From: Eutreptiella sp. 'Long Island Sound 2002'
Lineage: Eukaryota; Euglenozoa; Euglenophyceae; Eutreptiales; Eutreptiaceae
Assembly (NCBI GenBank): GCA_964036045.1
Contig: OZ038384.1
Coordinates: 40,650,844 to 40,714,843 of the forward strand
Length of the DNA stretch: 64,000 nt
Direction of reading: 5' to 3'
The notes beneath the pieces are model-generated. The model had not been told where the DNA came from, ran no database searches, and saw nothing but the letters and a program-made list of their open reading frames with translations. A program made the translations under genes and the position numbers. Shown here piece after piece: positions 5,869-59,002 of this stretch; the first letter of the stretch is position 1, and each line of letters starts with the position of its first letter.

Positions 5869-8361
5869 ATGGGTACGGGGCGGCGGGAGGCAGGGATGCT
5901 GGCGAGCGCCCTGGAGCGCTACGAGCTCCAGCGCCCAGGGCAGGTCGCCCGGGAGAAAGCCCTGGTGGCCGCGTCCCCGGACGACGGCCAGGTCCGCTGT
6001 GTCCAGCTGGGGGACGCGGCGGTCCTGGGTCACCACCCCGGTGATGTCCGGGCGGCCGAGCCCCAGGAAGGCCTCCCCCTGTCGGGGCGCCTGTCCGTGG
6101 GGCGCCTGCTGGACGAGGCAGGGCTGGAGGACGTGCGGCGGGACGAAGGCCTGTACGTGGCCTTGTGGCGAGGTGGGGCTGACGCTTGGCGTCGCGAGCA
6201 GGCTGTGCGGCCCCTCACGCCCCAGGCGCTGGGATCCCATGCGCTCCTGGTGGCGGTGCATCCTGAGGGTGCAGAGGTCGTGTTCGGCGCGGACCGCCTG
6301 CTGCTGACCGGGGATGGGGTGGTCCTTGTCCCAACCTCCAGCAGCCACCGCCTTGAGAGCCGCGGCGGTGACCTCAAGCTGCTGGTGGTGGTGGGCTTGC
6401 CCCTCGACGAGAGCGCCGCCCCACAGGGGTCCGAACACGCGGTCCCGGTCGGGAGTGATGAGGAGGCAGGCCGCGACAATGACGAGGTGGAGCAGGAGCA
6501 GCCCACGGGGGAGGAGCAGCAGCAGGGTCAGCCGGAGGTGGCCGGGGAGGAGGTGGATGTGCAAGCCATTGTGGCGCCCGCCCTGACGAGGTTCACGGCT
6601 GCAGCGAGCCCGCCGCTGACGACAGAGGCACTGGAGGAGGAGGACCAACGCAGGAGGAGTGAAGAGGCGCAGGTCGCCATGGAGCGGGACGAGGAGCTGG
6701 AGTTCATGGGGACGTGAGAAGCGCAGCGTGAGGTGGGCCCACGGGGGCTGGGAGTGGCGGACAAGGCTGGGCCGAAGACGGGGGAGGTGGAAACCTGCAG
6801 GCACTGGGCCAAGGGGTGGTGCATGCGGGCAGATGCCTGCCGGTTGGCCCACCCCCAGCCGCCGGTGCCGCGGGGAGTACCCCAGGAATTGCTCCTGATC
6901 CTTCAGGCCATGGCCCGTGTGGGGGCCCTCAGCCTGCACCACAGCCAGGGCCACGGCCGGGGCCACGGAACGTTGCTTCAGGAAGTGGTGGTAAAGGCGC
7001 AAGGAGGAGGACTCCCAGCGTTGGGGTATGCGGTGGAGAGTGGGGGCCTGACCGAGTGGGCGGTGGCGTTGCCATGTGGCATGGCGGCCCTGCTCACTCC
7101 GTTCCCGGTGGTCCCGTGGAGGGACATGGTCACCGTCCAGGAGGCCAACCCGGGGTGGGTGTGCACGTGGCACACACATCCTGCCGGCATGGACCCTCGC
7201 GAGTGGCAGGCTGAGGCGGTCATGACGTACCTGTCGTGGTCGTTGTCGGCAGCGCCGGGTGCGTGGGCGCAACGGTGGGACAGAGCGCTCAGCTGGGCGA
7301 GGAATGGCAGTGCTGTGGCGGCCTGCCCTGACCTCCCGCGCGAGCCTGTCTCAGTCCAGCCGTGGACTGTCTCCCTGCATCTCCCCACGGTGGCGGCTCG
7401 CCTTGCGGCCACGGACCCGGAGGTCTTGCTGCTGGGAGACCGAGAGGGGCCAGGGTTTCGCCTGGGCCGGGGGTTGGAGGTTCGCACTGCCCGCCTCCCC
7501 AGCCCTGTGGACAGGGACATTCTGGAAGGACTCCAGTTAACGCGGGCTGACGGGGCAGATGTGTGGACCGCCGTCCATCGCCGGCTCCCAGACGCATGGC
7601 CCCAGGTATTCCAGCCTCCTGGTCACGAGCGTCTGATGGGAGTGGAATGGCGCGTGTGGGCCACCAACAGCCCGTGCCCGCCGGTAGTGGTCCTGCCAAG
7701 GAGAACCAGCCACCCCAGCTGGGAGACAGTGGCGGTCTTGTGGGGATGGGTGGCGGTCCGTGGGACCGGTGGCCACGTCTTCACTGCCCCACGGGGCACG
7801 GTGATCGAGACCGACAGGGGGACGGCATTGCAGCTCGCCGCAGAGCCCCTGACCACGCATGTGGTGGTGGCTGTCCTCGTATGGGGAGCCGACAGGCCAC
7901 AGCCCTGGCGCGATCCGATCGCTGGGGCTGTCTGGCGCGACCTGCCGGTCCTTAGGGCCGCCGTCTGGCCAGGAGGAGCAGGGCGGCATCTCTTGGGCGC
8001 ACTCTCCTGGCTGCGGGACTGCGGAAACGCCTCTCCTCCGCCAGCTGAGTTGCGGGGCGCCCTGGAGCACCTGTACTCGAAGCCCAGGCACCATTTCCTG
8101 GTAGCCGGGGACCATGCGCTGGAGCTCAGCGACGACGTGGTCGCGCTGGCAGCCGACGTGGTGCGGTGCCTGGCCCCCCACGCTATGATGCTCCCGAGGG
8201 AGGGGTGGGAGGGCCAGCGGCACGACCAAACCCGGCTGCCCTCTTCATTGCGAGGTACGTCGAGCTTGGGGGCTCAGAGGCGGTGTACCCCGACCGGTCG
8301 GAGACGCCGAGCATGCGGCACTGGACGTCTCACCACCTCCTGGCCCCTGCCACGCAGTTGA
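5869..8361 (+). pseudogene. LINE ORF1 region with CCCH zinc finger and JAMM/MPN-like motif
   Basis: One reading frame runs through 5869-8361 with a single in-frame TGA at 6715-6717. The first part ends in an acidic, Gln-rich linker. After the stop, a C-x7-C-x5-C-x3-H finger (CRHWAKGWCMRADACRLAH, about 6799-6855) fits the RNA-binding CCCH class. About 100 residues later, GWVCTWHTHPAGMD (near 7157-7200) resembles the HxHP core of JAMM/MPN isopeptidases, but the usual S-x2-D is not clear, so an active site is not shown. The frame is lost near 8170-8361, where a different frame carries the conserved protein onward. The domain order is consistent with a large ORF1-type polyprotein; that function is inferred. 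Confidence 0.45.
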
Positions 8362-9485
8362 CGGTGGACCCGCTAGGAGGGCCTGAGGTGTCTGGAGCCC
8401 AGCCCCAGTGGCCACACACATGGGACATGGCAGTCCGGACGATGCGCATGGCTCCCAGGGGTCAAAGGGCGGGGTGGCCGGGCGCGGAGCATCTGCTGGC
8501 GACGGCCAGGGAGGCACAGGTGCAGCAGCCAGCCGGCAACAACAAGGACTGTGGCGTGTGCGCCCTCATGTCCACCGTCGGCACCCCTCTTCGGGTGCCA
8601 AGACCGGGCAACCTCCTGTCCGCGCTGGACAGGCGCTGGATGGCGGCGGTGGTCCTCAACAGGGACATGGGGCCCATCGTGCGTCTGCCGTCCCTGAGGG
8701 AGCTGCCTGCGGCGGTGCTGAATGCCCTGCCGGCGCCCCGCACACCCTTGGACGTGGCGGACGTCCAGCACAGCGTGGGGTTGCCCGGGGCGCGCATGCA
8801 ACATGCCCTGCTGTGTATGGCGGCGGCAGCGGACGGGGGGATGTCCATGCTGATGACGGTGTCCCTGCAGCACGTGCAGGACGCGATGCAGCAGCAGCGG
8901 ATGCATGCCCCCCAGCTGTGGGAAGAAAGCGCCAAGCGGCGGCTGCGGGTGGAGAGCGTGCCTCCCACCCATACGGTGGGCGTGGCGGATATGGGGCGGC
9001 TGGTGGTGTTGGAAGGGGCGGAGTATTGGGCCTGTGTTTGGGTGGAAACAGGGGGACTGGAGTGGGTTGTCGTCACCGCGTGCCGGCTCAGGAGGCAGCA
9101 ATCCAGGGGCCCAGCCTGCTACAGGGTGTTCCGGGGGTGCCTCAGGGAGCTGGGGCCGGTGCGCAGGGCACACAGGTGCACGGCCGAGGACATCCCGCCG
9201 GCGCCGGCGGTCTTCATGGAGGTCACGCGACCGCCGGCGATCCAGGGGCAGGACGTCTGGCCCATAGCCCCGAGTAACATGTGGCAGGCTGAGCATGCAG
9301 CTGTCATGTGCAGGGCGCTGCAGGGTCACGCGGCGGCCCTCCCCAGGGCCCTGGCAGCGCAGTCCTCCAGCAACGGCCGGCAGCCTCGCTGGCACTGCTG
9401 CATAGCGTGTCACGGGCGCGGTGCTGGGTTGTGGCGGCATTGGAGCCCCACTCCTCGGCACTGCGCCTGTACGATCGCGGAGAGG
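8166..9485 (+). pseudogene. LINE ORF1 region, Ulp1-like cysteine protease domain
   Basis: The frame has the motif order of Ulp1/SENP (C48) proteases, counted from the ATG at 8166. RHW has its histidine at residue 52, an aspartate follows at residue 68 (LTVDPL), and the motif QQPAGNNKDCGVC supplies Gln 121 and Cys 129. In Ulp1 these are the catalytic His-Asp, the oxyanion Gln and the catalytic Cys, with similar spacing. The frame shifts again near 9310-9480, where the next frame continues (CWVVAALEPHSSALRLYD). In transposons such domains are known as SUMO/ubiquitin-like proteases. Here the copy is broken, so activity is unlikely. Confidence 0.5.
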
Positions 9486-10311
9486 GCACGGTGCTCACGG
9501 TCCGCGCCGCCGACCTGGAGGCCCTGAACCTTAGTGCACTGAGTGGTCACGGGGGCGAGGCGCTGTACCTCCAAGGGACCGTGGCAGGCGCAGCCGCGAC
9601 ACGCTTCCGCCGGCAGAGAGGAGGAGATGCCCTCCGCCTGGTCATGGCGGAGACCATGGGGCCGTGGCTCCGGGCGTTCTCCACGTCCAGGCGGAAGGTC
9701 GAGGGCGACCAGGAGAAGTTCGCCAACGCGTGGCGCTGCTGGGTGGAGGAGCAGTTTCCCGTGGGGGGAATGCTGCACCTGCCGCAGCCACCAAGCGTGC
9801 CACCGGTACGGCCTGCGGCATCCCCGGCCGCAGCGGCGAGGCAGGCCCCGAAAGCAGCGCCCAAGCCGCCGCCCAAGAGGAGCCCCCCGCCTCAGTATGG
9901 CGCCTATGCCAACATTCGGTACGTGCTGCAGCACTTCGGCGCTGACTTGGCCACGGAGCAGCTTGGGTCGAAGACGATCAACGTCTGCCCCTGGTCTCGG
10001 CTGGATGGGGCTGGTCACTGCACACGGAGAGCTGGCAAGCACTGCCGGCCCACCCACCTCCATCCCAAGGACCTGTTGGACCACATCCAGCGGGACCATG
10101 CGGCTGATCCGGCGCAACGGGACCAGGCGCTGGCCATGCTGGCTGGCGTTATGCCGGGGGGCCAGGCGGGGCCTTTTGCGTCAGCCCAGGCGAGGTCCAG
10201 AGCGCTCACGCTGCCCACGGATGCCCGCCCCGCGGCAGAGCGCGGGGCGTCGCTGTCGGCGGCGCGATCTGGAGCGATTGGGTCTGCAGCACGGCGTGGG
10301 GCGGTGAGTTC
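9486..10311 (+). repeat. 826-bp direct duplication, copy 1 (LINE coding)
   Basis: This sequence recurs at 11883-12708, offset 2397 bp, with no difference in any stretch I compared; the translations are identical in three frames. It encodes the next part of the LINE protein: a Pro/Ala/Lys-rich linker and a zinc-finger-like segment CPWSRLDGAGHC followed by H-rich DLLDHIQRDH. It ends in GGTGAGTTC, immediately before a run of 20 T. Copies 1 and 2 flank a minus-strand LINE, so they look like an exceptionally long target-site duplication. Confidence 0.85.
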
Positions 10312-16622: not shown

Positions 16623-18036
16623 GGTCCTCTCACATCAGCAGGCCCTGGCCTGGCGCGCCCATGAACTGTGGCAACGGGACGCGGCGGCGGCCAGACTCCA
16701 CTCCCAGGAAGCGACTGCCTTGCTACAGCACCTACGGCGGGTGGACCCCGACCTATCCCCCGCTTCGGTGGAGGACCTACGTGCGGCGTTGGACCAACAG
16801 CTCCACCAGCTGGAGACACGCCTGGAGGAGATGCGGGGTGTCCTCAGGAGCAACAGGGGCCGGTCCATCAAGGACTATTGGCGGCGCAGGGTGCCAGATA
16901 TGCAGCTCCGATGGACGGCGATACGGGGGGCCATCAACGTGGTGAACTATGCCCCATCGAGCCTGTGGTCCGTACGCGTCCGGGAGTCGGAGAAGGTGCT
17001 CTTGGAGGCCTCAGACGTCATTGGCGAGGTCCAGAGGTACTGGGAGGCGCTGTACGCCAAGCGGCCAGTGAACCTGCCGGCCTTCGAGCGGCTGGTCCGG
17101 GCCCACATTCCCAGGGGGGTGCCTGGGGAATCGAGGTCGGTGCAGGACTACACCCTGCAGGACCTTAAAGACGCCGTGAGGCAGGCCGTGGCGGACGACA
17201 AAGCTCCGGGGTCCAACCGGGTCACGGTTGCCCTCATAGCACAGCTGCCTGAACCAGTGCAGGGGCTCCTGGTGCACGCGTACAGGGCTATCCTGCGGGG
17301 TGCGGACGTCCCGGAGTCCTGGCCCGAGGCCATTATCTGGCTGATGCCCAAGGGCACAGCCACGGACAACCTGGACGAGTACAGGCTGATAGCGCTGGGG
17401 CAGCAAGACATGCGAATGCTCATGACTCCCCTCATGCGGAGGTTCACAGCTGTCCTCGCTCGCAAGGGACTGGCTGCGGCCTGGCAGTTCGGGGCCATGC
17501 CGGGCTCCACGGCGGCTGCCCCGGTGTTCCTGGCCAAGCGCAGGCTGCAGCGTGGGCAGGAGGAAAACCATGTCCTCGCCTTCGATGTGTCAAAAGCTTT
17601 TGACACAGCGCCGCACGGGGCGCTGGCACTCCTCCTGCGCCACATGGGAGTCCCGGAAGAGCTCATCAGGCTCTTCCAAACCCTCAGCTGCGGGTCCCTG
17701 GTGCGCATCGTCACTGCGCACGGCCCGACGCCGAGCATTCGGCTCCACAGGGGCCTGCGGCAGGGCAGTGCGGAGGGCGCTTGGCTCTACCTCCTCCTCT
17801 TGGAACGTCTTCTGCGGAGCCTTGCCTGCAAGGCGCGGGGAGATGCTTGCCATGCGGTGCCACCCCTGGTGCAGACGTACTGTGATGACCTCCTGTTGAT
17901 AGCGCACTCCCTGCCGCAATTCCTCGAGTATCCAGCGGCGATAGCGCGATATCTCACGGACATGGGCATGTCCCTCAATATCGGCAAATGCGCCTACGCC
18001 AATACTGGTCGCATTCATCGGTCATGGTGTGCCTGA
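16623..18036 (+). pseudogene. LINE reverse transcriptase, fingers and palm
   Basis: The frame begins with a coiled, Gln/Arg-rich segment, followed by the RT blocks. These are DLKDAVRQAVADDKAPGSN (block 1, 'K-x-PG-x-(D/N)'), WPEAIIWLMPKG (block 2), YRLIALGQQDMRMLM (block 3), LAFDVSKAFDTAPHGAL (block with the first catalytic Asp), GLRQGSAEGAWLY (block 4) and TYCDDLLLIAH near 17878 (the YxDD box, here YCDD, with both catalytic aspartates present). The frame ends at 18036 through a frameshift. This is the polymerase that would copy LINE RNA at the nicked target. Confidence 0.8.
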
Positions 18037-19538
18037 GCCCAGGGAACATGGCGGCCCCATGGGTATGCTTACACGCCAAGGGCACGGTACCATACTTGGG
18101 CCTGCGCCTCGATCCCAGGGGGGTGGTTACCATGAAGGAGAAACATGTACTCCGGTGTGAAGCTCTGCTGGGCTGGTGCAAGAGCACGTTGGGGCCGGCG
18201 TCGGTGCCTCATGAGATGATGGCGGCTGTGGTTGGTGGCATCGTCCGGTACGCGGCGCCCTACCTGTCCGACACGGCGGAGGCGGTGATCAAGCTGAATA
18301 CTGCCATCAAGGCTGCGGCCCTGCAATTCGAAAAGCTGACCAAGGACCTGTCCACGGTAGCAGTGCGGTCAGGTCATGGGTTACGGTTGGCGGATATCCA
18401 GGTTATCTGCCGCGAGTCCGTTGTGGCGACCATGGCTCAACTCACCCACCACAGGTCGACGACAGTCCGAGATGAGCTGCAGGCCATGCTCCGGGACATG
18501 CACGTGCAGTACCGAGTGTCCGGGCAGTTCATGGTACCCTCTGCGTCATTCGCCAGGCACGCTGGCAATATGTGGGTGGACAGGGTACTCCAGGCGATGG
18601 GGTCGTTGCGCGTAGGACTTCTCATGCCATCGTCAGTCTACTCATGTGTACAAGCCCATCTGCTGCAAGTGCAGTGGGCGGGGCGGAAGTGGGTGTCCCA
18701 ATCCTATTCCTTCAAGGGTAGAGACATCTGCGTTCTCTCGGGGCCCTGCACAGATGCGGCGGTACAGTCCCTGACTGATCCCGCAAATGACCTCCTGCAT
18801 GCGCGGCTCCCCTGTCCTGCCCCTGGGCACCGGGCTGTCCAGCTCCAGGAGTGTCATGAGGACCACCTGCACCTTCCGCACGCAGGAGTAGGGCCCCATC
18901 AGCTGGTCCACGTGTGGTTCAAGGGGCTCCGCGACGTCTTCCGGCCGCGGCTGCTTAGTCCGTTGACTCACCGGCTAATTCACCCGGTGCGCCGAAAGAA
19001 GGCCAGCAAACGCAATAGACAGTCCACTGCGGGGGACGTGTATGTGGTGGGCGGGTACAGGGAGGAAGGATGGGACCCGGCCAACCCGGGGCTATCCATG
19101 CCGTTCCTCCCGCTAGCCGCCCTCCTGTTTCTGTTGGGGGACGTCTTTGAGGGTTACCAGCAGCAAAACGATCCGGCGTCCGTCCCCCTACTCACTCCAC
19201 ACGCCGGGGGCGGCATAAACCCGTCACCACTGTGGGTTGTGCACGGGCGGCCAGCGTTCTCCAGGGCATGCGCGGCGGTGCACGGGTGCAGCGGGTGGGC
19301 AATTGTCCTTCTGCTACCAGCAGGCCCTGTCCCGGATCCGGATGAGTACTCGGTCCCGGAAGTGGTTGGGATGTTCAACGTGCCGCACACTCCGCACGTC
19401 GCCGTCACGTCGTTGCGTGATGGCGGCGCGGTGGAACAGGGATCTGTGGTGGTGTACCAGCCCTCCTGCTCCGCAACGGTTTTGGGGGGCGGAGTAAAAC
19501 ACCCCCCGGGACACCATCAAGTCAGTCTGTGGATGTGA
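17988..19538 (+). pseudogene. LINE RT thumb and linker
   Basis: This frame overlaps the previous one by about 50 bp in another phase, so an indel near 18000-18040 broke a continuous ORF. It continues with the RT thumb motif PYLGLRLDPRG and a helical connection domain. After a basic patch (RRKKASKRNR) comes a segment that ends near 19538. No stop interrupts more than 500 codons, so the damage is limited to a few sites. Confidence 0.65.
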
Positions 19539-19560
19539 ACTGGCCTGGAGACCACATGCG

Positions 19561-21156
19561 GTGTATCGGCCGAAGGTAGTCCGGTCCCCAGAGCTCACGG
19601 CCTCAAGTGCGGCGTCCCTCGGAAGGCTGGTGCACAGCTCCCACTCCGACGTGGCGTGGCTGGAACCCCATCGGTACTGCTGGGTGCCGGTGGCGACTAA
19701 AGTCACATCGTCTGACGCGTTGCCCCGGGGAGACGACGCCACAAACGTGGCAGTGGCCAGCCACGGAATCCCCACGTGGACGGGTGCCATCTACGGCACG
19801 GTCCCGGAGGCAGAGATCATCGGCGCGGCGGCATACCTGTTGCACACGCCCCCGTCAGCGTGCACGGTGCACGTGGTGGTTGCGTCCATCATGGGAGCGC
19901 ATCTCCGCAGTGCGCAGGAGGCCCTGTACCGTGGCATCAAGGGGCCGACATTACATCTGGTGAACCAGCACGCACTGAGCTGGATAGTGGAGGGGCTGCG
20001 GCGGCTGCCCCGCCGAGTTCGGAGGCCGCACCACTGGGTGGTGAGGCAGAGCTCGCACTTGGCGGCGGTCCCGCTCGAGGCGCCAGACTCTGCCGCGGCC
20101 TGTGCAATGGCCCCGCCTGTCCCTCTCGTCCTACCCAAAGAGCACGCCATCCTCTTGGTGCCGGGGGATAATGGAGAGCTCGAGCCGCGTGTGCTTTCCA
20201 TGCAAGCCCTTCACCAAGTCCGGGGAATGGAGTGGCGTTCGCTAGCGGCACGCACCAGGGCGCACACGCCACTGCCTGGCGCCTGCGAGGCGGTGCCCCT
20301 GGGAGCTATACACCACGGCCGGACGCACAGAAATATGCTGCGGGCACGTGACGGTTGCTTGTCCACGATGCAGGTCATGCGACGGTGGAGACAGAAGCTC
20401 AAGCGTATGGCAATACCGGCCCACCCCTGTATCTTCTGTGGGGGGCCGGAGGAGGACATTGGCCACATGCGCCTGCTGTGTGCGCGGGACGAGGAGGTGG
20501 CAGGGCTCCTGTGCAGGCGTGTGGAGGAGTTCACGGCCGAGCTACCCCTGACAGACAGGGCGGTGAAAATCGTGGCGTGGAGGGAGCACGGCTGCAGGTG
20601 GACTGAATCCCTGATGGCGGGTGTCGTCCCCGGGGACCTGAAGCGGCTGTTCGCTGCGGTGCGAGCGGCGTCGTCCCCGGGCCCTGCCAAGGCCAGGCTC
20701 TTTGTGGAGGACATGGTCCAGATTGGGGAAGATATGTATGCCCGCAGGAACCATCGGGTCACCCAGATCATGCAGCTGCCCGTGCAAGATCAAAAGACGG
20801 CGGTATACGCGTTCCTGCGAGGTGACACACCCTACTGCCCGCCGGCAGGGAGGATCCAACGGCGTCCGCCCTGGAACCCGTTTGCCGGCCTCCCCAGCGA
20901 CCTGCGGGCAACCTTTCAGAGGGCAGCGCTGCACGCACTGCTCGTGCCACGGTGGTGCATCGCGCAGGAAGAGGCCATGTCCTTGTTCCCTCACTGGATG
21001 GCGGCCGTGGCGCAGGCCTCTTGCCAGTGGATCGGTTCCTGGGTGGCAAGGGACATCACGGCATTCAGGGAGTGGTCCCGCGTGGTGTCGGCGCAAACGT
21101 GGGCCCTGGTGCGTGGTACCATGGTGAGAAGCCCCGATGGCCAGAGTGATCCCTGA
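19561..21156 (+). pseudogene. LINE C-terminal region with C-x2-C-x8-H-x4-C finger
   Basis: A 531-codon frame in yet another phase. The N-terminal part (EAEIIGAAAYLLHTPPSACTVHVVV) has the pattern of an RNase H-type fold, but the usual aspartate is not evident. Near 20430-20484, CIFCGGPEEDIGHMRLLC is a CCHC zinc motif of the type found after RT in LINE proteins. The rest is basic and unrecognised, ending at a stop near 21156. I see no restriction-like endonuclease signature, so the dual-endonuclease Dualen/RandI clade is possible but not supported. Confidence 0.55.
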
Positions 21157-41687: not shown

Positions 41688-42280
41688 AACATCAGAGAGG
41701 AAATATCACAGTTGTGTCGGTCATTTTTTGCCCGCCTGTCCCATCTCTCCATTCAAGTGGTGGTTTGGCTTGCCGTTGTGGTGGTTGATGATTCTGCTGC
41801 GGTTGCAATCCATGATGCATGATGCATGATGCTCCACTTCTCTTCTCAAAGCAATGTCGTCTATCCCGCAAATTGGCGGTACTCTTCCAGTGTTGGCAAG
41901 GGAGCACTTGTGCATGTGGCTGCTGTGTTGGAGTTCCTGAGCAATGAGATGTTGGAGCTTGCGAGCAACGCATCAAGAGAAAACAAGAAGTAGCAACGTA
42001 TCACGCCTCGGCTCTTGATGGTATGCACCGTGTGCAAGAGGCCTTGGCGGCCTTCCTCCCCCTCCTGTTCAAGGCCCTCCTGTTCAAGGTGCCGCGTGTC
42101 CAAGATACAACATGTGTATGTACCGCATTATTTTGGGACCTGGCTACAAGGGGACTGTTTCATGGGAATCAGTAACATCAAGAATGGGGCTGCGGGGGTG
42201 GGGGGACTGGGGGGGGGTGCCGCCTAACACCACTGAACGTATTCAGCAAATGTAAACATTCACAACAGCACATGCACATT
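41688..42280. other. no gene recognised
   Basis: Unremarkable DNA with a short direct repeat ATGATGCATGATGCATGATGC near 41811-41832 and CCTCCTGTTCAAGG repeated near 42061 and 42077. It ends at the AG tract. Confidence 0.4.
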
Positions 42281-42434
<154 letters not shown>

Positions 42435-42474
42435 CTGGGTCCGTGAGTTTGTTGCATCAATTCACATCCTGCAC

Positions 42475-44190
42475 GCACCCACTGTGCACGCTGCACGCAC
42501 GCATTGTGCACGCTGCACGCATTGTGCACGCTGCACGCACCCACTGTGCACGCTGCACGCACCCATTGTGCACACTGCACGCACGCATTGTGCACGCTGC
42601 ACGCACCCACTGTGCTCACTGCACGCACCCACTGTGCACGCTGCACGCACGCATTGTGCACGCTGCACGCACGCACTGTGCACACTGCACGCACGCACTG
42701 TGCACACTGCACACACGCATTGTGCACGCTGCACGCACGCACCCACTGTGCACGCCGCACGCAGGCATTGTGCACGCTGCACGCACGCATCGTGCACGCT
42801 GCACGCACGCACCCACTGTGCCCGCTGCACGCACGCACTGTGCACACTGCACGCACGCACTGTGCACGCTGCACGCACCCACTGTGCACACTGCACGCAC
42901 CCACTGTGCACGCTGCACGCACGCATTGTGCACGCTGCACGCACGCACTGTGCACACTGCACGCACGCACTGTGCACGCTGCACGCACGCACTGTGCATG
43001 CTGCACGCACGCACTGTGCACGCTGCACGCACGCATTGTGCACACTGCACGCACGCACTGTGCACACTGCACGCACGCATTGTGCACGCTGCACGCACGC
43101 ACTGTGCACGCTGCACGCACGCATTGTGCACGCTGCACGCATGCACTGTGCATGCTGCACGCACGCACTGTGCACGCTGCACGCACGCAAAGTGCACGCT
43201 GCACGCACCCACTGTGCACGCTGCACGCACGCATTGTGCACACTGCACGCACGCACTGTGCACACTGCATGCACGCACTGTGCACACTGCACGCACGCAC
43301 TGTGCACACTGCATGCACGCACTGTGCACACTGCATGCACGCACTGTGCACACTGCACGCACGCATTGTGCACGCTGCACGCACGCACTGTGCACACTGC
43401 ATGCACGCACTGTGCACACTGCACGCACGCACTGTGCACACTGCACGCACGCATTGTGCACGCTGCAGGCACGCACTGTGCACACTGCACGCACGCACTG
43501 CGCACACTGCACGCACGCACTGTGCACGCTGCACGCACGCACGCACTGTGCACGCTGCACGCACGCATTGTGCACGCTGCAGGCACGCACTGTGCACACT
43601 GCACGCACGCACTGCGCACACTGCACGCACGCACTGTGCACGCTGCACGCACGCACCCACTGTGCACGCCGCACGCAGGCATTGTGCACGCTGCACGCAC
43701 GCATCGTGCACGCTGCACGCACGCACCCACTGTGCCCGCTGCACGCACGCACTGTGCACACTGCACGCACGCACTGTGCACGCTGCACGCACCCACTGTG
43801 CACACTGCACGCACCCACTGTGCACGCTGCACGCACGCATTGTGCACGCTGCACGCACGCACTGTGCACACTGCACGCACGCACTGTGCACGCTGCACGC
43901 ACGCATTGTGCACGCTGCACGCACGCACTGTGCATGCTGCACACACGCACTGTGCACACTGCACGCACGCACTGTGCACGCTGCACGCACGCATTGTGCA
44001 CGCTGCACGCACGCATTGTGCACGCTGCACGCACCCACTGTGCCCGCTGCACGCACCCACTGTGCCCGCTGCACGCACGCACTGTACACGCTGCACGCAC
44101 GCATTGTGCACACTGCACGCACGCATTGTGCACGCTGCACGCACGCATTGTGCACGCTGCACGCACGCATTGTGCACAGTGCACGCACTA
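42475..44190. repeat. 22-bp minisatellite, about 78 units
   Basis: The unit is GTGCACGCTGCACGCACGCA plus two variable bases. Variants occur at fixed places: CGCATT, CGCACT and CCCACT before GTG, and CGCTG versus CACTG. A higher-order segment of about 220 bp is repeated at 43440-43560 and 43550-43680, and another long block (42730-42990 and 43640-43900) is nearly identical. Because 22 is not a multiple of three and stops are absent, open frames of 520-644 codons exist in several phases on both strands. These are artefacts. Confidence 0.97.
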
Positions 44191-44509
44191 CCTGCTGACA
44201 TCATAGATGTTAACAAGACATATAGTTGTGGTGCTCTTGCCTTCACACTTGCTGCATTATTTCCCAAGCTTGGGCCCAGCGTACGTGCTTCAGATCCTCC
44301 CTGAACCTATATTCCTGCTCCGTGTGGCTGCTCTCCAAATATATGGGTTTCATTCTGGGGGATGGGCGAGGGTACTTTAATGGATCCTCACCCGATAGAG
44401 CAAAACATTCAAGCTCTCAATGATGGGGAACATAATCTCAAACTGCACGCACCGTGTTCTATAATCAGGTGCGTTCCCTGCCTGGTGCAATGTATTGGTA
44501 CGGCCATCC

Positions 44510-49945: not shown

Positions 49946-52133
49946 TCAGCAAGCAGAAAACAACAGCGTCAGTAGAAGATCGCACAATCCTGCATCCGGT
50001 GAACTCAACATTACATCAGGATCCTGTCCGGGTACAGCGAAAGGAACGGGCGATTCACCACCATTCGCAGCCGGAACTGGTCCACCATTCCCGTGGGAGG
50101 GTCTTCCATTCCACAGATTGCGGAGGGTATCAACCAAAAACCCCCCCTGAGGCTCAGGCTGAGGCTCAGGCTCAGGCTTAGGCTCAGGTTGAGGCTCAGG
50201 CTCAGGCTCAGGCTGAGGCTCAGGCGGCCAAGAGCAAAGAAGGTTCACCCCCAGTCGCCATTTAAATGGAAAATCATCCACCTGGACCCTTTGCGCAGTG
50301 AAGTGACTGAGGTCCACGTGGAGTCAGTGCTGCATATTACATTTCATCCACGTACTGTTGATGTCGTGGACAAAACTGGCGGCGGGGTGCCATTCCAGGC
50401 GGGCATGATCTCGAAACTCAACATACCACCAAGGCTTGGCACCGGGAAAAGGTTGGCGGGCGCGTTTTTCGCGGCCATTGGCCCCTCTTCAACGCCATTC
50501 ATGCCTATCCACCCGCTCCACCATGTAGGAATCGTCGCGAATCTCACGACGCTCCGCATAGTAATGCAGTGGGGGCTGACGTCTGTCATGGAGCTTCACA
50601 AAGGGCTTCAGCCGTTCCACCGATAGGTCCTGCTCCACCCCATTGTGGTTAACCCGGTAAACGGAGTCAGAGATCTTGTCAATGATCACAGAGGGTCCCT
50701 GCCATACTCTACCGAGCTTTTCACGTTCTTCCTCTCGGTTCTGGACCCGTACCCGGTCACCGGCAACGAAAACAGAGGGAGGGTGTTCCTTTAGGAACCT
50801 GTCCAACTGTTTTTTGTGTATTGACTCCAGTTTTTCTTGTACCAATTCCCTTTCCGCAGCCACCCTCTTAGAAAACTGGGTGGCGTGCTCGCAGCCCTCA
50901 CTGTCCAATACCGGGGGTAGGTCGGGGGTTGCGCCCAAACACCAGCCAGTGTGGCGAGTAGGGTGCCACTGCCCCAGCGAGGTCATTGAGACCCCACAGG
51001 GCCAGTTGCAACGCCTCCAGCCAACTCACGTTCGTGCTGAGGAGCTACTGCCGCAGAGTATTGATGGCACTCTGCACAGCCCTCAAAGCCCTGCCATTGG
51101 ACTTAGGTCTATATATGATAGACTTGGTCTGTTCAATGCCGGCAAGATTGCACAGCGCATTGAAAAAGGTGCTGCTGATGATCGACTGATTGTCAGCTGG
51201 AATTTCTCTGGCCAAGCCCATGAAAAATCCACACCTATGCAGGACGAGCTCAGCAGCCTTACGACTGGTGAGCCCCTCCTTACAGCAGGGTATGGCTATC
51301 ACATATCCTGTCAACCGACAAACTATGACCACGGCGTAGTTCCCCCGAATTTCGGTCTTGGTTGACTGGTTACAGACTTCAGGTAAATCCACGAAGTCTA
51401 TGGCCACTGAGCTGAAAGGAACCGAGGGTACGGGAAAGGGTTTGCAGGAGTCAGGATGTGGGCCGCATCTAGCTTTCGCTTGTGCGCAGACCAAACAGTC
51501 TGACGGTGCCTTGTTCACTGTTTCCCGCAGCCGGGCATAGGGCATGTCAGCGTGAGAACGCTGTAGAAACAGCTCCAGGGTCTTTGCCTGACCCAGGTGG
51601 GCACATGCATGTACAGCTCGGATAACCCGAGACACAATGGACTGCGAGACACAAATTTTACCATCCCGACGAATGTGGGGATGACTCCACTGTGGTCCCT
51701 TGGCCCAGAGGTATCCATCCATGGAATCCTGATTCTCCAGACCCCTATCCAGGAGTCTTTTGTACGTTCTGTCCGCCCTGTAGTGGGGCATCCAGTCCTC
51801 GTACAGTATTTTGGTCTCAGGCGGCATTTTGACCTCAGTGAGGTTTCAAGAGAGGCTAGCGGCAACCCAGGTAGGATCTCCGTCACTGTAGCACAGTGGG
51901 GCCGCATCATCAGTCTCATCCAACACATTCCAGATGGCCTCATCAGGGCCTACACTGGATTCCGCTTCAGACGAGGACTCCTCCTCGAGGCTCATAGTCA
52001 CCTGACTGAAGCAAGGCGGAAAGGGTCAACAGGGTTCACAGTGATCTGGTGCGCTCTGGACGGCATTCACTGCGGGGTCGTCCGGGAGCGAACTGCTGTC
52101 ATAATGTACACTGTTATGCAACCTGTGGACCTG
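49946..52133 (-). pseudogene. gypsy integrase and C-terminal tail
   Basis: Past the insertion, the minus-strand frame continues in phase (QVHRLHNSVHYDSSSLPDD), with two TGA codons where CGA would give Arg. The zinc-binding part (HACAHLG, CLVCAQAK) and the core (SVAIDFVDLPE, first Asp; REIPADNQSI, second Asp) follow, then YRPKSNGRALRAVQ. The usual third catalytic Glu is replaced by Leu (GRALRA, where the family has GxAER). A frameshift near 50940 leads to 50986-50489 (GDRVRVQN...WQGPSVIIDKISDSVYRV, an integrase C-terminal domain). The same frame then continues through further TGA stops into a PEPQPEPEP-type tail ending near 49946. Integrase inserts the cDNA. This copy is dead. Confidence 0.85.
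50141..50226. repeat. GGCTCA hexamer repeat
   Basis: Roughly 13 hexamers (GGCTCA, GGCTGA, GGCTTA). They encode the PEPQPEPK-type tail of the gypsy protein on the minus strand. Confidence 0.9.
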
Positions 52134-52138
52134 CAACC
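52134..52138. repeat. left target-site duplication GCAAC
   Basis: GCAAC precedes the left terminal repeat. The same five bases follow the right terminal repeat at 58998-59002. With one copy and the element removed, the gypsy frame reads straight from RERDYLLL into QVHRLHN. Confidence 0.85.
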
Positions 52139-52161
52139 TTAGCCCACGCAAACTGCACCCT
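52139..52161 (+). repeat. left terminal inverted repeat
   Basis: 23 bp, perfectly inverted relative to 58975-58997. It starts with CTTAG at the outer edge. Confidence 0.9.
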
Positions 52162-52333
52162 GTTTTGCGCGCCGAAGGCGCAAAAAAGGACCGGTTCGCA
52201 ACAGGGCAAAAAAACTATTTTTTTGGATGTTTCATGAACGTGATTTTAGACGTAGTGAAATAAATTGCTTTTTTCGTGTTGTGCAACTCCGTGTTCCTCA
52301 ATGTGACGTTTTTTACATTTCTCTGGCGTTCTG

Positions 52334-52355
52334 AGTGCGCGAGGCCTCGCGCACT
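52334..52355. repeat. 22-bp palindrome, copy 1
   Basis: AGTGCGCGAGG followed directly by its complement. The flanks extend the dyad to 26 bp (52332-52357). It lies 195 bp inside the left end. Confidence 0.97.
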
Positions 52356-52558
52356 CAAGATAGCGAAAGCAGAGTTTATCACGAAACGTAACAACCCGTA
52401 AGGACTGGCTTTTGCGGAAATACGCAGCTCCCACACGGTATTAAAATTAGGATTGTGTTGACCAGGGAGCATTGGAAGTGTATGGCTGTCGGACTTCCCA
52501 TGTTAGGGGAAACACATGTACTGTAAAGTGAAAATAAAATACAAATTTAAGCAACCTG

Positions 52559-52580
52559 AGTGCGCGAGGCCTCGCGCACT
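52559..52580. repeat. 22-bp palindrome, copy 2
   Basis: Perfect copy. The flanking ACCTG and CAGGT extend the dyad to 32 bp (52554-52585), the longest of the ten. Confidence 0.97.
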
Positions 52581-52744
52581 CAGGTCACGTTATGTATTGA
52601 ATTTTCAGACTGGATGTGACGCGTACAATTGCAGGTACAGTACGAGACGGACAAACACGTTTGATTTTTCCGGTGTATATGTGTGTAGACACCATGTTGA
52701 TCAGATTCAACACGGTATAGAACATTGTTTCCCCGGAAACAATC

Positions 52745-52766
52745 AGTGCGCGAGGCCTCGCGCACT
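52745..52766. repeat. 22-bp palindrome, copy 3
   Basis: Perfect copy with no dyad extension. It is the last of three upstream of ORF1, 463 bp before its ATG. Confidence 0.97.
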
Positions 52767-53229
52767 TAAATGACAGAAGAAAATGAAAAAGCGATCAAGC
52801 TAGGCTACGCCGGTATTTACATTCCCCTTCACGTCTACCACCTGTGACAGTCGATTATACATCGGTAACCTTCGTCATATTTTTCAGGGGATCAGGGGAA
52901 TGATTTGCTTTTTTCCAACAGCCACTCGATGGTAGACGTGTCCGGTTTTAATAGCGGCGTAGCCTTCGTTGACCGATAGACATGGTTTTTTTTTCCAACT
53001 GGGTTTAAAGACGGACGCAGAACAGGAAATTGTGGTTGCGAAAACAGTTTGCGGTTACTGGGAACGGAGCGCACGCAGACACCAAATCCAATTTGCGGCA
53101 ACAGCACACGCACCAGAATGACGACAGGAAAAGGCCAGATGTTTTCTAATACATTTTTTTTAAAGGTCGCTGTGCGAAACGATAACCAACATATGTGCGC
53201 AAATATAATTCCACAGAGAAAGACGCAAA
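52767..53229 (+). promoter_or_regulatory. presumed promoter and leader of ORF1
   Basis: 463 bp of non-coding DNA between palindrome 3 and the ORF1 start. I see no clear TATA box. With the three palindromes it is the likely control region, by position only. Confidence 0.3.
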
Positions 53230-55227
53230 ATGCCACTTCGAGCCAGAAAATCCGTAGAGCAACGCATGATTGCAGAAGTAAGCAAAGGAGCAGCAGCACT
53301 ACGAGAGGCATGCGCGGCAGAACCAGCATACCAAACAGCAGGTGACCTATGGAAAGGACTGAAACGGAACGACCTGGCGGCGCAACTGGTGTTAACATTT
53401 GCACAGCGACTCAGGTTCAACAAAAGAACGCGCCACAGTTTACCAGCAGCTAAACGACAGGAGGACAAGCGCTGGGTGCGCATTTTGCAACAGGAGGGCT
53501 GGAACCTGTACCTGTTGATGCGTCAACGGGCAGTACCAAACAGGAAAAAACCGGGAAACACAACAGGGTACCTGACGCAAACAGAAAGACGAACAAAAGT
53601 ACGACTCGGGCAAGCAGACGCTGCCGCAGACACAGTGGACGAACAGGCAGCAGCAGCACTTAAAGCAACTTGGTCACTGGTGCTTTCGTCGTGTTGCGTG
53701 CTGTGGATAGACAACTGGTACCGGGCACAATACACGACACACCCAGACGAAAGTGACCGGTCGCAAAACTGTACTGCAATGGCAGTACTTCAACTGAAAC
53801 AGAGGCCCACGTATTGGGCAGGACATCCAGCCATTGAGGAACTGGCAGCACGGATAACGACAGTCGCAAGGGCTCTGCAACAGCGTGAACGGAGAATCCA
53901 CCAGACATTGCGTGACATGGGGTATGCAGATGGGTGTACACCAGACGCTGGAAACGTGAGAGCGCCGTTGGATGTGAGGAGGGATGCAAGGACTGTACAG
54001 GCACCGGTGTGGCGCCCGTTTGCCCTGTCCAAAGAGAAGGTAACTTGTGGTGTTGGTCTGTTAAACTTGTTACACTTTGCAAGGGACGTAGCACAACAGA
54101 CAAACAGAGTTCTACCGCTGTTGGTTGACGAAAACATACACTACAGGGTACTAAAGTTGTTGTACGGTGCCAAGAACCAACGATGGAACATGCGTGCATA
54201 CCTGCGTTACGTGCCTGTAGTTTACGGTGTCTGGCATGCCTACAAGTTCGTTGTTACTCATACTTTTCGGGTGTTCTGGCCTATTCTAACCTACCTACGG
54301 AAAGGTCTGCTACGACCTGGTTCCACCATACTATCATACCCCAAACTGATAGTTATGGAAAAAACTATTGCTGCGCTGATGCTTGCCACACCCCGAATAC
54401 TACGCCCGTATCGGCGCAAGGCACAAGCTGCAACCGCGATCAGTGGTCGTGACACTACGCATGCCAACAGGGCAGCAGTGGCAAACGCAGTCTTGCATTT
54501 GTTGTCGGATTGGTGCCCGTTGTTGTTGTACTTGGGTCACCTGGTACGGGAGTGCAATTGGTCGGGGGAAAACAACGCTACAGGGACACGAGCTCAGGAG
54601 GTGTTGCAGTTGAGTTTGTGTCTGTTGCGGAGGCTGCGTCGAGGACCGTGTGACACCATACTGAAGTACGAGCGCACAATCATGTGCACATTGTTGTACA
54701 ACAGCAAGTGGCACCAGGACCTGCCCGGTCAGGCACACTCAGAGGAGTTTGGAGAAGGGATGTTGAGCAAGCTGGTGCGGGACAAGGCGAGAAACACGGG
54801 TTCTGTTACTGTTCAGGAGGTGGAAAACCATTACTTGTTGCTAAAGGTTGGTCCTGGTGGAAAACGCGTGGGGGTGCAAAACGTTCCCAAGAACCTGGTA
54901 CACAGCATGCGACAACGACTGACCAGATTTTTGGCGACAGACCGGATATGCATGGCCTATGTGGAATGGGAGTCGGACAGAGTAAGCACGGTTGCACCTT
55001 CTTGGCCGCGGAGGTTACCGAGATTTCCGCCCTCACCTACACAACCCCTCGGTTACGACCACTACCGGCTACTTGGTCACAGCGTACTAGATGCCCTCAT
55101 TGACCAGAAAACAAATCCCACCAACCAACTGAAACGGAAACTGGATGCTGTTGTGGGACAGAGAACAGATATGGATGCCGACAGACAGGAAGCAGCAACA
55201 CGCAACGTGCGGCAACGCTTGCGGTAA
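53230..55227 (+). CDS. candidate transposase of the palindrome element (665 aa)
   Basis: An intact, intronless ORF of 665 residues starting MPLRARK. The start is the first ATG in the frame and lies just after a TATA-poor leader. I do not recognise the family by name. Features fitting an RNase H-fold DDE transposase are LWIDNWYRAQY (Asp 161, a 'DN' motif), LPLLVDENIH (Asp 300), VPVVYGVWHAYKF (His 336 after G-x-x) and QEVENHYLLLK (Glu 530/532 before Asn 533). This D-N / D / G-x-x-H / E-x-x-N arrangement is similar to DUF6589-like transposon proteins; the comparison is from memory. The N-terminus is basic and helical, and the C-terminus is basic (RKLDAVVG...RNVRQRLR). It lies between palindromes 3 and 4. 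It probably cuts and joins the element ends, but is unproven. Confidence 0.6.
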   Translation: MPLRARKSVEQRMIAEVSKGAAALREACAAEPAYQTAGDLWKGLKRNDLAAQLVLTFAQRLRFNKRTRHSLPAAKRQEDKRWVRILQQEGWNLYLLMRQRAVPNRKKPGNTTGYLTQTERRTKVRLGQADAAADTVDEQAAAALKATWSLVLSSCCVLWIDNWYRAQYTTHPDESDRSQNCTAMAVLQLKQRPTYWAGHPAIEELAARITTVARALQQRERRIHQTLRDMGYADGCTPDAGNVRAPLDVRRDARTVQAPVWRPFALSKEKVTCGVGLLNLLHFARDVAQQTNRVLPLLVDENIHYRVLKLLYGAKNQRWNMRAYLRYVPVVYGVWHAYKFVVTHTFRVFWPILTYLRKGLLRPGSTILSYPKLIVMEKTIAALMLATPRILRPYRRKAQAATAISGRDTTHANRAAVANAVLHLLSDWCPLLLYLGHLVRECNWSGENNATGTRAQEVLQLSLCLLRRLRRGPCDTILKYERTIMCTLLYNSKWHQDLPGQAHSEEFGEGMLSKLVRDKARNTGSVTVQEVENHYLLLKVGPGGKRVGVQNVPKNLVHSMRQRLTRFLATDRICMAYVEWESDRVSTVAPSWPRRLPRFPPSPTQPLGYDHYRLLGHSVLDALIDQKTNPTNQLKRKLDAVVGQRTDMDADRQEAATRNVRQRLR

Positions 55228-55238
55228 CTGACACCCGC

Positions 55239-55260
55239 AGTGCGCGAGGCCTCGCGCACT
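55239..55260. repeat. 22-bp palindrome, copy 4
   Basis: Perfect copy, 11 bp after the ORF1 stop codon. Confidence 0.97.
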
Positions 55261-55294
55261 AAACGTTATGAAAACAGGTATGTAATGCGATGTG

Positions 55295-55316
55295 AGTGCG
55301 CGAGGCCTCGCGCACT
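55295..55316. repeat. 22-bp palindrome, copy 5
   Basis: Perfect copy, 34 bp after copy 4 and 159 bp before the second gene's ATG. A CCCTTTTCAG string at 55451-55460 could be a 5'-untranslated splice acceptor, in which case this copy and perhaps copy 4 would also be intronic. Confidence 0.95.
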
Positions 55317-55475
55317 GAGTACTTCGCTAAGTGCCGTGGATTAAGTCACAACAAAGACGTTTGTGGAACAGATTTCCGAAAACGACCTGCAAAATACCGT
55401 TTCGACTGATTTCAGAGTTCAAATGACCGTGTTTCATGTCATGCCATTTGCCCTTTTCAGGTATTGTTTGGCATC

Positions 55476-58431
55476 ATGAGTGAACCAGGGTCGCCAGAAC
55501 GTCCAGTAACAGACGCAGAGGCCATGGAGTCGTCACCAGGGACCGACCACGGGGACACGCCGAAGAAAGGACGCAAGAAGAAGGGTGAGAAGAAAGCAAT
55601 ACCGGAGATGAAGCTCACAGTCGAAGTGGCACAGTGGCTGCGGCAGGAGAATGGTAAAGCCGTGAAGGTAAAGATTGCTGATTTGAAAATTGACAAGACC
55701 AAGGAGCGCGGACAGATCCGATCCATCAACTATGACGACGTTGCCAGAAAAGTGGCAGGATACCAAGCACTGCCACCAGCTGGACCGTTGCGCATAACGG
55801 CGTGGGAGGATGGTGGTATGACTCGCTTCGCTTTCGATCGAAGACGGTTCTTCTTTTTGCTTCGGTACATGATTTGCTTTGCAGATGGCTCCCTTTACGT
55901 TCTGAATGGTCAACATGGCACAGAAACATGCAGAAAGATTCAGCAACAGCGTCTCGAAGAAGGCAAAGAATTGGAGGATTGGCAGGAGTTTTGCTACGTT
56001 GACATTCTGAAGTACGAAACGCCTTGGAGGATCCGTGCCAAGGTTGCAGGATTGCAACAAGCTGGCAGCCAGTCTGTGACGTGGATTCCGCTGTCCGAGG
56101 CGCTGGACAACATGTTGTTGTACATTGAGGATCAGAAGCGGGAAAAAGAGCCACAAGATTTCGAGAGGTTCAAGATTGCTGTTGTCCAAGCTGCCGTCAA
56201 CTCTGCGTTTCTTGCACCCGAGGCTTTGGAGGAAGCAGGACATACAGTATGTATTCGTGTATCGCACGGTTACAGTGCGCGAGGCCTCGCGCACTCCATG
56301 ACACTGTCTCCCCCCGCAGGACTCGACATTCAAGAATTGGAGGGACATCTTCTCCCTGGCGTATTACTGCGGCCGTGAGGCGGTTACTGGTATGAGGAAC
56401 CTCGAGAGTAAGAGCAAGAAAGAGGACGTTACAAGGAATGCCTTCAAGAGGCTGGAGGGGCTGCATCTACCGAGCCTATTGCAGAAAGTCTGTGCGCACA
56501 TGAACCTGAAGGACTCGACCTTGAAGACCACCCAGAACTACATTGACGCGCAGATTACGGAACAATGGGTTATTTTCCATCTTGACCATCCGGACAATAC
56601 GCAGCATGTCAACCAGACCGCAGGTATGCGTCAGTGTCGCAGCTGCAGTGCGCGAGGGCTCGCGCACTTCACCACGTTTGTCACATCCGTACAGCTGCCG
56701 ATGCGAAGATCCGAGCAGAAGTCGCAGCACTGGGCACGCCGCAATTGAAAATTGGGCTTGGAAATTGGGGTTATTGGGTGGACGCAAAAAGTACGAAGTT
56801 TCGGTCGCCCTGGCCAAAATGGAAGACGTTGCTCACTGCACCTCTGTGGCGCACTGGGGACAAGGGCGCACCTCCATTACCACAGACGTTGGCCGTGCGG
56901 AAACAACTGCAAAGGAAGGTTGAGGCACCATCATCGGCACCTTCACAGACACAGCTCAGTAATGGCGATGTGATCAATGTCTCCAAGTCGGACGAGCAAG
57001 GGATCAAATACGCTTTGACAGCCTGCCGTATTGAGAATATTGAAGAGACACCGCCAGGCCGTTTCCGGGATCTGCAGTACCCGTTGTGGATCATCAACGC
57101 TGACCTTTTCATTGAATACGACTCTCCAGGATTTGTTCCGAAGTGGCTGATCGATGTGATGATGCTGGGGAAAGACGTCATTTTCTATGGCGAGGCTGAT
57201 GTTGTGCACCGTATTGGCCGCGAAATGCAGAGGCTCTGGCGTATGGAGAAGGACAAGGATCCAACCACAGTGCCATTCTACCATGTTCGGTTGCCGGTGT
57301 ACTCTTGGTTATCGGGTCCCGTGACCAGCAGTACGTATCAGTTCGACGAGCACTGTATGTGGATCGGAACAACGAGTCGCTGGGATAAGCAGGTATATCT
57401 GCTTCTTTCGATTGTTACGATGCCGTTGTGTGCGCGAGGCCTCGCGCACTGCTGCCTCCGTTATTCGTCTATATTCATCACATTTACAGTTGCCGAACTA
57501 TGTGTCGTATTCCGCTGGACATTTCGAAGAGATGCAAGAGAAGAACCTCGGCGGTTTCATGCCTCTGATTCACGTGCTGTGGTACCTGGACAGATACGTT
57601 TTGTGCAGTGGGCTTCCTGATGCAGTGGTTGTTGTGGACGACACGCCTGCCATGGCCGCAAAGATTGCGATGTCTGACCTCAAAACTAAAGTGGCGTTTC
57701 TGGCTGTGTCAACGATCAAGCAAAAGGACCTAGGGAATGCCGTTGGAGGTGCTCTGCAGCATGCAATCGTGATGCGGTACATGCTGGAGGCCGATCAGAC
57801 GGAGCAGGGAGCAACAGCTGCAACTTGGGATACTCAAGAAGAGTGGCTCCAGCGTGGCATTCCACTGTGGGTTTTGGACAGCAAACGAGGGCATGAAGGG
57901 CACCAGCAGGTGCATGCTGCAGAAGCCGTCCAGCAAGATGTCGTGACTGAGGCCCCCGCTGAAGACACTGAGCCTGGTGCGCCTGCACCTACCTTGCCAA
58001 TGCAAGCCAAGATGAAGAAGACTGCCAAAGTTGTACCAACTCAGGGTACTGCAGCCGGAAAAGGAACACCCTCGAGTACCAAGAAGCAAGCAAAAGGGAA
58101 AGAGAAGGAATCGGACAAGCCCGCGGAATCAGACGACGACGATACTGACGAGGAGTCAGAAGAAGACGATCTGGAGCAAGTACTGGAGACCCAGCAGAAG
58201 CGCAAGCGGGCATCCGCCTCTCACTTCGATGCAAGCAGCCCCGACTCTGGTAAGGAACAGTCCAAGAAGAAAGCGAAGACTGCTGCCAGTGCTACTGCAG
58301 AGTTCAAGCCGCCCTCGCGTTCTGGTACCCTGCCGTCTCGAGGTACCGTTGCCTCTCCAAGTGGGACAAGTACAACAGCAAGAAGCCTGGGTTCCAGGTT
58401 GGCTAAGGTTGCTGGACCGAAGAAGAAGTAA
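55476..58431 (+). CDS. ParB/DGQHR-like protein of the palindrome element, four exons (904 aa)
   Basis: Exons are 55476-56246, 56320-56623, 56695-57392 and 57490-58431. All introns are GT-AG (GTATGT, GTATGC, GTATAT donors; phases 0, 1, 0) and every junction keeps the frame. The ATG at 55476 is the first in frame (MSEPGSPERP). Residues 1-45 are charged with a KKGRKKKGEKK nuclear-signal-like patch. Residues 65-160 resemble the N-terminal ParB/DGQHR fold: VKIADLKID...NYDDVARKVAGYQAL, then LYVLNGQHGTETC (143-152), where ParB-type proteins have (D/N)G-x-HR. Here the Arg is Gly, so nuclease or nucleotide-binding activity is uncertain. The middle (residues 360-690) is globular and unrecognised (IINADLFIEYD, DAVVVVDDTPAMAAK). 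The last 130 residues are Lys/Ser/Asp/Glu-rich with KRKRAS and KKKAK patches. It could bind the palindromes, but this is inference. Confidence 0.7.
56274..56295. repeat. 22-bp palindrome, copy 6 (intron 1)
   Basis: Perfect copy inside intron 1 (56247-56319, 73 bp), 27 bp from the donor and 24 bp from the acceptor. Confidence 0.97.
56647..56668. repeat. 22-bp palindrome, copy 7 (intron 2)
   Basis: Inside intron 2 (56624-56694, 71 bp), 23 bp from the donor and 26 bp from the acceptor. One base differs from the consensus, in the centre (GGGC instead of GGCC); both 9-bp arms are intact. Confidence 0.97.
57429..57450. repeat. 22-bp palindrome, copy 8 (intron 3)
   Basis: Inside intron 3 (57393-57489, 97 bp), 36 bp from the donor and 39 bp from the acceptor. 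One difference, at the outermost base (T for A). Confidence 0.97.
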
Positions 58432-58473
58432 GTCACCATTAACCCAAGTGTTACGCCTCTTTTTGCAGTCATG

Positions 58474-58495
58474 AGTGCGCGAGGGCTCGCGCACT
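58474..58495. repeat. 22-bp palindrome, copy 9
   Basis: 42 bp after the stop of the second gene. It has the same central GGGC variant as copy 7, with both arms intact. Confidence 0.97.
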
Positions 58496-58632
58496 CGCCT
58501 TCGACGCGAATGCAATTATATGCCCTTAAAGGGTTGTACATTTTTGCCAAGCTTTTATCTCAGTGTTTGTACGTTGTGCACTTCGTGTCCTGTTTTTGTT
58601 GCCCTCTGTACACAATTGTTTCCATGACCTTG

Positions 58633-58654
58633 AGTGCGCGAGGCCTCGCGCACT
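58633..58654. repeat. 22-bp palindrome, copy 10
   Basis: Perfect copy with extended flanks (CCTTGAG and CTCAGG). It lies 343 bp inside the right end and is the mirror of copies 1-2 at the left. Confidence 0.97.
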
Positions 58655-58974
58655 CAGGTACACAAAAAAGCAATTTATTTCGCAGGACAAACATAGGTGC
58701 AACTGGAGACCCGCAGAATGTCATATTTTGAAAATGAGCTCCCGAACAGGCACGCACCAGTTGGCTTTTGAAATACAAAAACGACAAGATTGGTAAAACA
58801 CACCCCTCAAATAAGACAAAATAATAGTTTATTTTGATAAGCAAAAAGTGGAAAAAAGCAGCAAATTGGGTAAAATTGTATTTTTTCGGTGGCATCTGGG
58901 CCATGTGTGTTGCAAATGTCCAAAAAAAATAGTTATTTGGGCGGTCATTTTTTAGGTCCTTCTCTTCCAAAAGG
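58655..58974. other. right subterminal region of the palindrome element
   Basis: AT-rich non-coding DNA between the last palindrome and the right terminal repeat, with several poly-A and poly-T runs. No gene. Confidence 0.6.
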
Positions 58975-58997
58975 GGGTGCAGTTTGCGTGGGCTAAG
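58975..58997 (-). repeat. right terminal inverted repeat
   Basis: Exact inverse of 52139-52161. The outer edge reads GGGCTAAG, followed by the target duplication. Confidence 0.9.
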
Positions 58998-59002
58998 GCA
59001 AC
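58998..59002. repeat. right target-site duplication GCAAC
   Basis: Matches 52134-52138 and sits directly after the right terminal repeat. Confidence 0.85.

Follow-up and report, generated by a model that had tools for sequence, protein, structure and literature searches.

In a 64,000-nucleotide stretch of the Eutreptiella sp. 'Long Island Sound 2002' genome (GenBank assembly GCA_964036045.1, contig OZ038384.1, positions 40,650,844 to 40,714,843; hereafter the window, with position 1 as its first letter), we found a complete two-gene DNA transposon of 6,860 bp at 52138-58997, which carries ten copies of a 20- to 22-bp palindrome (AGTGCGCGAGGCCTCGCGCACT) confined to its non-coding DNA. The element has defined boundaries and 5-bp duplications, is present in many copies and has recently spread, and both its pair of open reading frames (ORF1 and ORF2) and the core of its palindrome are kept in a second family whose ORF1 protein is only 45% identical. 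We favor, with somewhat more confidence than doubt, a cut-and-paste transposon in which ORF1 would carry out cutting and joining while a dimeric protein encoded by the element would dock on the palindrome array. The original prediction, made from the sequence alone, had already described a complete two-gene transposon, and this was borne out; it contained neither the palindrome with its ten copies nor the division of ORF2 into exons.

The two ends of the element are 23-bp inverted repeats with no mismatch, and GCAAC flanks the element on both sides as a target site duplication, both as originally read.

52133-52137, no strand: left target site duplication, GCAAC
52138-52160, + strand: left terminal inverted repeat, CTTAGCCCACGCAAACTGCACCC, 23 bp, perfect
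58975-58997, - strand: right terminal inverted repeat, 23 bp, perfect
58998-59002, no strand: right target site duplication, GCAAC

The right boundary of the original prediction was correct, whereas the left end starts one base earlier than the proposed 52139. When up to 3 mismatches were allowed, the 22-bp end matched twice in the window, against 0.01 matches expected. Joining the two 600-bp flanks with a single GCAAC produced an open frame of 158 codons spanning the junction, so that the earlier claim of a flanking frame that reads through once the element and one GCAAC are removed held true. The open frame agrees with the gypsy pol gene that the original prediction named as the insertion site, and gypsy-like ORFs are visible by eye among the ORFs of the window. 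A second, different inverted repeat, TTTTGCGC..GCGCAAAA, lies at 52160-52190, directly inside the left end.

Copies of the element were sought with the ORF1 protein in the 2.28-Gb host assembly. At least 67 ORF1 copies, including that of the window, were about 100% identical over the full protein and had no stops; since 67 of 8,569 first-look candidates were scored, this number is a lower bound. In a sample of 30 fetched loci of this family (family 1; 5 kb each, with L023 being the window's own copy), the exact 22-bp end was present in 29, at most 9 bp off the expected place, and the left flanking 5-mers were all different. The right ends (40 bases) of seven other family-1 copies repeated the left 5 bp in every case. 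The ends and duplications of the window copy are therefore common to other copies, and inverted ends together with a fixed-length duplication in several copies identify a terminal-inverted-repeat DNA transposon.

Divergence from the window copy was at most 0.11% in 27 of the 30 loci, the window's own included, and was higher in L026, L005 and L004. The match to the element ends at element position 3378, early in ORF2, in L004 and L005 and at 4358, also in ORF2, in L026; these breaks may reflect deletion or insertion. L018 lacks element positions 3326-3955, again in ORF2, and ORF1 is intact in all four loci. The element is present in high copy number, has recently spread and has recently been active.

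What stands out most in the element is the palindrome. The 20-bp sequence GTGCGCGAGGCCTCGCGCAC occurs in the element as eight exact copies and two with one central change, where 0 were expected, and no copy was found in the 57,130 bp of the window outside it. Non-coding DNA makes up about 32% of the element and holds 10 of the 10 palindromes, with a chance of about 1e-5 by length alone.

52335-52354, no strand: palindrome copy 1 (GTGCGCGAGGCCTCGCGCAC)
52560-52579, no strand: palindrome copy 2, symmetric over 32 bp
52746-52765, no strand: palindrome copy 3
55240-55259, no strand: palindrome copy 4, 12 bp past the ORF1 stop; its family-2 counterpart lies directly after the ORF1 stop of that family
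55296-55315, no strand: palindrome copy 5, 56 bp beyond copy 4 (55 bp in family 2)
56275-56294, no strand: palindrome copy 6, within predicted intron 1 of ORF2
56648-56667, no strand: palindrome copy 7, one central change, within predicted intron 2 of ORF2
57430-57449, no strand: palindrome copy 8, within predicted intron 3 of ORF2
58475-58494, no strand: palindrome copy 9, one central change
58634-58653, no strand: palindrome copy 10

Across the 30 family-1 loci there were 204 copies of the palindrome and none in the 30 left flanks of 400 bp each. Each symmetric arm measures 10-16 bp, and every tested 8- or 9-base half-site falls inside a palindrome, which points to a dimer as the binding partner. 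The 18-bp core had one matching stretch in viral contigs. Alternatively, the palindromes may act in RNA: hairpins in untranslated regions or introns would then govern splicing, export, stability or small-RNA production. Three of the four predicted ORF2 introns hold exactly one copy, and the sequence would be expected to form a strong hairpin with the central changes in its loop; however, the copies nearest the ends (202 bp in from the left, about 350 bp in from the right) are perhaps outside the transcribed part, and intron 0 has no palindrome. We regard this explanation as distinctly improbable.

The element was also compared with related families. The ORF1 protein search returned 65 relatives, for which the sole label was 'hypothetical protein' (one relative). 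Family 2 (P0036; ORF1 45% identical) has at least 67 copies in the same assembly at 96-100% identity, some with stops. Family 3 (P0061) is 36% identical over half of ORF1, with 94 match rows in the same assembly, and further relatives at about 28-42% identity are located on short contigs from other sources. For ORF2, the spliced N-terminal 335 aa share 39% identity with family 2, and a stretch of 146 aa in the C-terminal region shares 29% with a relative of the 45% type. The ORF1-ORF2 pair is conserved between families.

Family 2 also retains a 16- to 18-bp core of the palindrome in comparable positions, and hardly any other non-coding 12-bp word is common to both families; the 16-bp core, with its two central bases left free, occurs 181 times across 30 family-2 loci. 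When the window element was compared with the family-2 locus L031, palindromes accounted for 48 of the 53 merged shared words of at least 12 bp; the remaining five comprised two words from ORF1, two from the region of ORF2 and a single non-coding one whose positions did not correspond. The palindromes of the window element lie 202, 427, 613, 3107, 3163 and 4142 bp from the left end, and those of L031 at 201, 429, 487, 2878, 2933 and 3914. L031 has a variant copy at 3477, inside intron 0, and the window element has four extra copies at 4515, 5297, 6342 and 6501, the last two of which are past the fetched part of L031. With the palindromes masked, the non-coding parts still aligned better than shuffled sequences (166.5, shuffles at most 128.5; 51, shuffles 39.5), indicating that distant descent is visible there too and that the palindromes alone stayed identical. 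We discounted the idea that the palindromes came from a nested mini-element, since two families whose flanks differ have them at similar positions.

Inserted family-2 copies were examined for protection of their palindromes, and none was found. Changes per CpG site were 0.0205 in palindromes and 0.0181 in other non-coding DNA, and at other sites 0.011 and 0.0135, respectively. Such a result is expected if selection acts on source copies alone.

The first gene of the element encodes a protein that is probably an RNase H-type DDE transposase.

53230-55227, + strand: ORF1, 665 aa, probable DDE transposase; candidate catalytic acids D161, D300 and one of E377, E505, E506 and E509

In a conservation alignment of nine diverse rows, D161, D300 with the following ENIHYR, H336, E377, E505, E506 and E509 were among the residues invariant wherever the row was present (6-9 rows each). 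In a weak AlphaFold2 model, D161 lies within strand 156-163 and D300 right after strand 297-299, helices occupy 373-490, and E505-E509 are on helix 505-521. A structural second look with this model placed the P-element and Hermes transposases in rows 3, 4, 5 and 8, all weak. With Foldseek, no row reached E ≤ 0.001 against either PDB or viral models. Sequence searches of ORF1 gave a best E of 0.15 in Pfam, under the curated cut-offs, and of 0.96 among PDB sequences, both taken as chance; there was no match in NCBIfam, none above chance in PHROGs (best E of the PHROGs searches, 0.022), and none in Pfam for 18 aligned ORF1 members. Scans with two to six short peptide patterns did not find ORF1 relatives in viral contigs or prokaryote genomes.

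The ORF1 protein could itself bind the palindromes, much as transposases of other elements recognize internal or subterminal repeats, leaving ORF2 with another role. Residues 11-100 of ORF1 are predicted to be helical with fair confidence (block predicted local distance difference test [pLDDT] score, 65-89) and could form a DNA-binding domain, and both proteins are conserved together with the palindrome between families. Subterminal transposase sites are usually clustered at element ends, however, whereas five of the ten palindromes lie between the ORFs and in the ORF2 introns. On this evidence, binding by ORF1 appears unlikely, and docking by a separate protein of the element is preferred.

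Several known systems were compared with the element. P elements and hAT elements such as Hermes gave the weak structural rows for ORF1 described above, and ORF1 had no Pfam match. The P element makes an 8-bp duplication, as hAT elements usually do, in contrast to 5 bp here, and the CTTAG ends, the second gene and the palindrome array also set the present element apart from both. The motif order of ORF1 (D-N, then D-rich, then G-x-W/F-H) presumably resembles that of transposases of the KDZ (Kyakuja, Dileera, Zisupton) or DUF6589 type. Zisupton, however, is described with 8-bp duplications (PMC12730594), unlike the 5 bp of the window copy and the seven others, and there was no Pfam match. The same source describes hAT5 with a 5-bp duplication, and a CMCT clade (EnSpm/CACTA, Mirage, Chapaev, Transib, Plavaka) with duplications of 2-5 bp and mostly CA..TG ends (PMC12730594). 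The duplication length fits the CMCT range, but the ends here are CTTAG..CTAAG, and the C(2)C and H(3-4)H of CMCT transposases between the second D and the last E contrast with the lack of any invariant cysteine among the nine ORF1 rows.

These results support the conclusion that the element matches no catalogued family above chance in Pfam, NCBIfam, PHROGs and PDB sequences. Repbase or Dfam could nevertheless already contain the superfamily of this element, with the palindromes as a known quirk of that family. Many transposon superfamilies have no Pfam model, which makes this a serious if minority possibility. Arguing the other way, ORF1 was unmatched in all four libraries, the 16-bp core had no match in a full-text search of 5.39 million papers, and CTTAG was not found in the literature on new superfamilies among the matches listed.

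The second gene was more complex than originally predicted. Of the two uninterrupted coding units of 665 and 904 codons that had been proposed, the first corresponds to ORF1, while ORF2 is interrupted and reaches 904 aa only after three introns are removed. In family 2, a 73-nt intron (present in the 24 of 30 loci that a script could parse) has the same place and phase as an in-frame read-through in family 1, which argues for a fourth intron (intron 0) and a predicted ORF2 protein of 881 aa.

55476-55815, + strand: ORF2 exon 1, predicted
55816-55884, + strand: ORF2 intron 0, predicted, 69 nt, in frame
55885-56246, + strand: ORF2 exon 2, predicted, with the NGQH motif
56247-56319, + strand: ORF2 intron 1, predicted, 73 nt
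56320-56623, + strand: ORF2 exon 3, predicted
56624-56694, + strand: ORF2 intron 2, predicted, 71 nt
56695-57392, + strand: ORF2 exon 4, predicted
57393-57489, + strand: ORF2 intron 3, predicted, 97 nt
57490-58431, + strand: ORF2 exon 5, predicted, low-complexity charged tail

Splice-like signals are also present in the gap between ORF1 and ORF2 (55228-55475) in both families, and suggest a leader intron holding the second intergenic palindrome.

The predicted ORF2 protein has a basic N-terminus and a charged tail. Read by eye, its motifs follow a ParB-like order ending in Y-V-L-N-G-Q-H, and the stretch D-G-x-x-Y-x-x-N-G-Q-H was read as ParB-like. ParB has GERR-type residues, compared with GQHG or GQHS in ORF2. 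In hhalign, ORF2 scored 15.8 with a ParB set of 80 Bacillus-type and five phage sequences and 20.0 when only the five from phages were used, which is not above the controls (30 shuffles, up to 22.9; reversed query, 10.5; unrelated ORF1 alignment, 15.8). The ParB relation is thus a motif-level lead and not a result. An AlphaFold2 model of the form retaining intron 0 had a pLDDT of 33.5.

Searches with ORF2 returned 1 and 99 relatives, mostly 70-100% identical, again with 'hypothetical protein' as the sole label. In Pfam, the 904-aa form and the spliced N- and C-terminal parts had no match (the charged tail gave a best E of 0.015, under the curated cut-offs). The spliced parts had none above chance in PHROGs, NCBIfam had none for the N-terminal 257 aa translated through intron 0, and the rows that ORF2 pieces gave among phage records all had E values of 5 to 10. 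A ribosomal protein found among PDB sequences with the N-terminal part (E 0.019) was taken as chance. In the libraries and parts searched, therefore, neither protein of the element gained a confident family name, as the original prediction had stated.

A Sola1 element of a brown alga reportedly carries a ParB-methyltransferase accessory protein, which has parallels in green and red algae, and the algal accessory gene is thought to bind its element's own DNA (PMC12477816). The ORF2 stretch read as ParB-like recalls these proteins; no ParB or methyltransferase family match to ORF2 was found in Pfam or PHROGs, and its hhalign scores did not exceed the controls. On the strength of that report, a host factor or DNA modification might target the palindromes, and ORF2 might be a relative of the algal accessory proteins. 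The palindrome core contains four CpG and one GGCC, but the palindrome CpGs change about like other non-coding CpGs in the inserted copies and ORF2 lacks the family match, so that we give this idea little weight. By analogy only, several near-identical palindromes and an encoded probable DNA-binding protein recall bacterial ParB-parS, from which the present system differs in being a eukaryotic transposon with no ParA seen.

In the mechanism that we favor, ORF1, as an RNase H-fold DDE transposase, would cut at the CTTAG ends and join with a 5-bp stagger. The element would also encode a DNA-binding protein that docks on the palindromes as a homodimer; the basic N-terminus, charged tail and ParB-like motifs make ORF2 the most likely candidate. 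Bound along the whole element, this protein would either unite the ends for excision or keep host silencing away from the element and its transcription, and the intronic sites would be a way to keep the array across a protein-coding element. The array may serve synapsis, transcription or protection from silencing. A bolder proposal, which we hold only tentatively and consider rather unlikely, is a new superfamily with its own centromere-like docking system, in which a ParB-type accessory protein on spread palindromes, introns included, would coat the element for synapsis, silencing protection or target choice.

Three other features were noted in the window. Three long ORFs lie at 16831-21156, one of which reads like the reverse transcriptase of a non-long-terminal-repeat retrotransposon; a minisatellite-like array at 42260-44304 has a short repeated unit and long overlapping ORFs on both strands; and an ORF at 8313-9527 has a NNKDCGVCALMS stretch, recalling the Ulp1-type (C48) proteases of some transposons.

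A recently spread transposon that protein libraries do not see would escape the usual annotation. For a DNA transposon, it is an unusual cis-acting design to have intronic copies of a palindrome whose core persists between families at 45% protein identity, and the array yields a clear testable prediction as to which protein of the element binds the palindrome. If ORF2 does coat the element, it would offer a new handle on end assembly or on escape from silencing.

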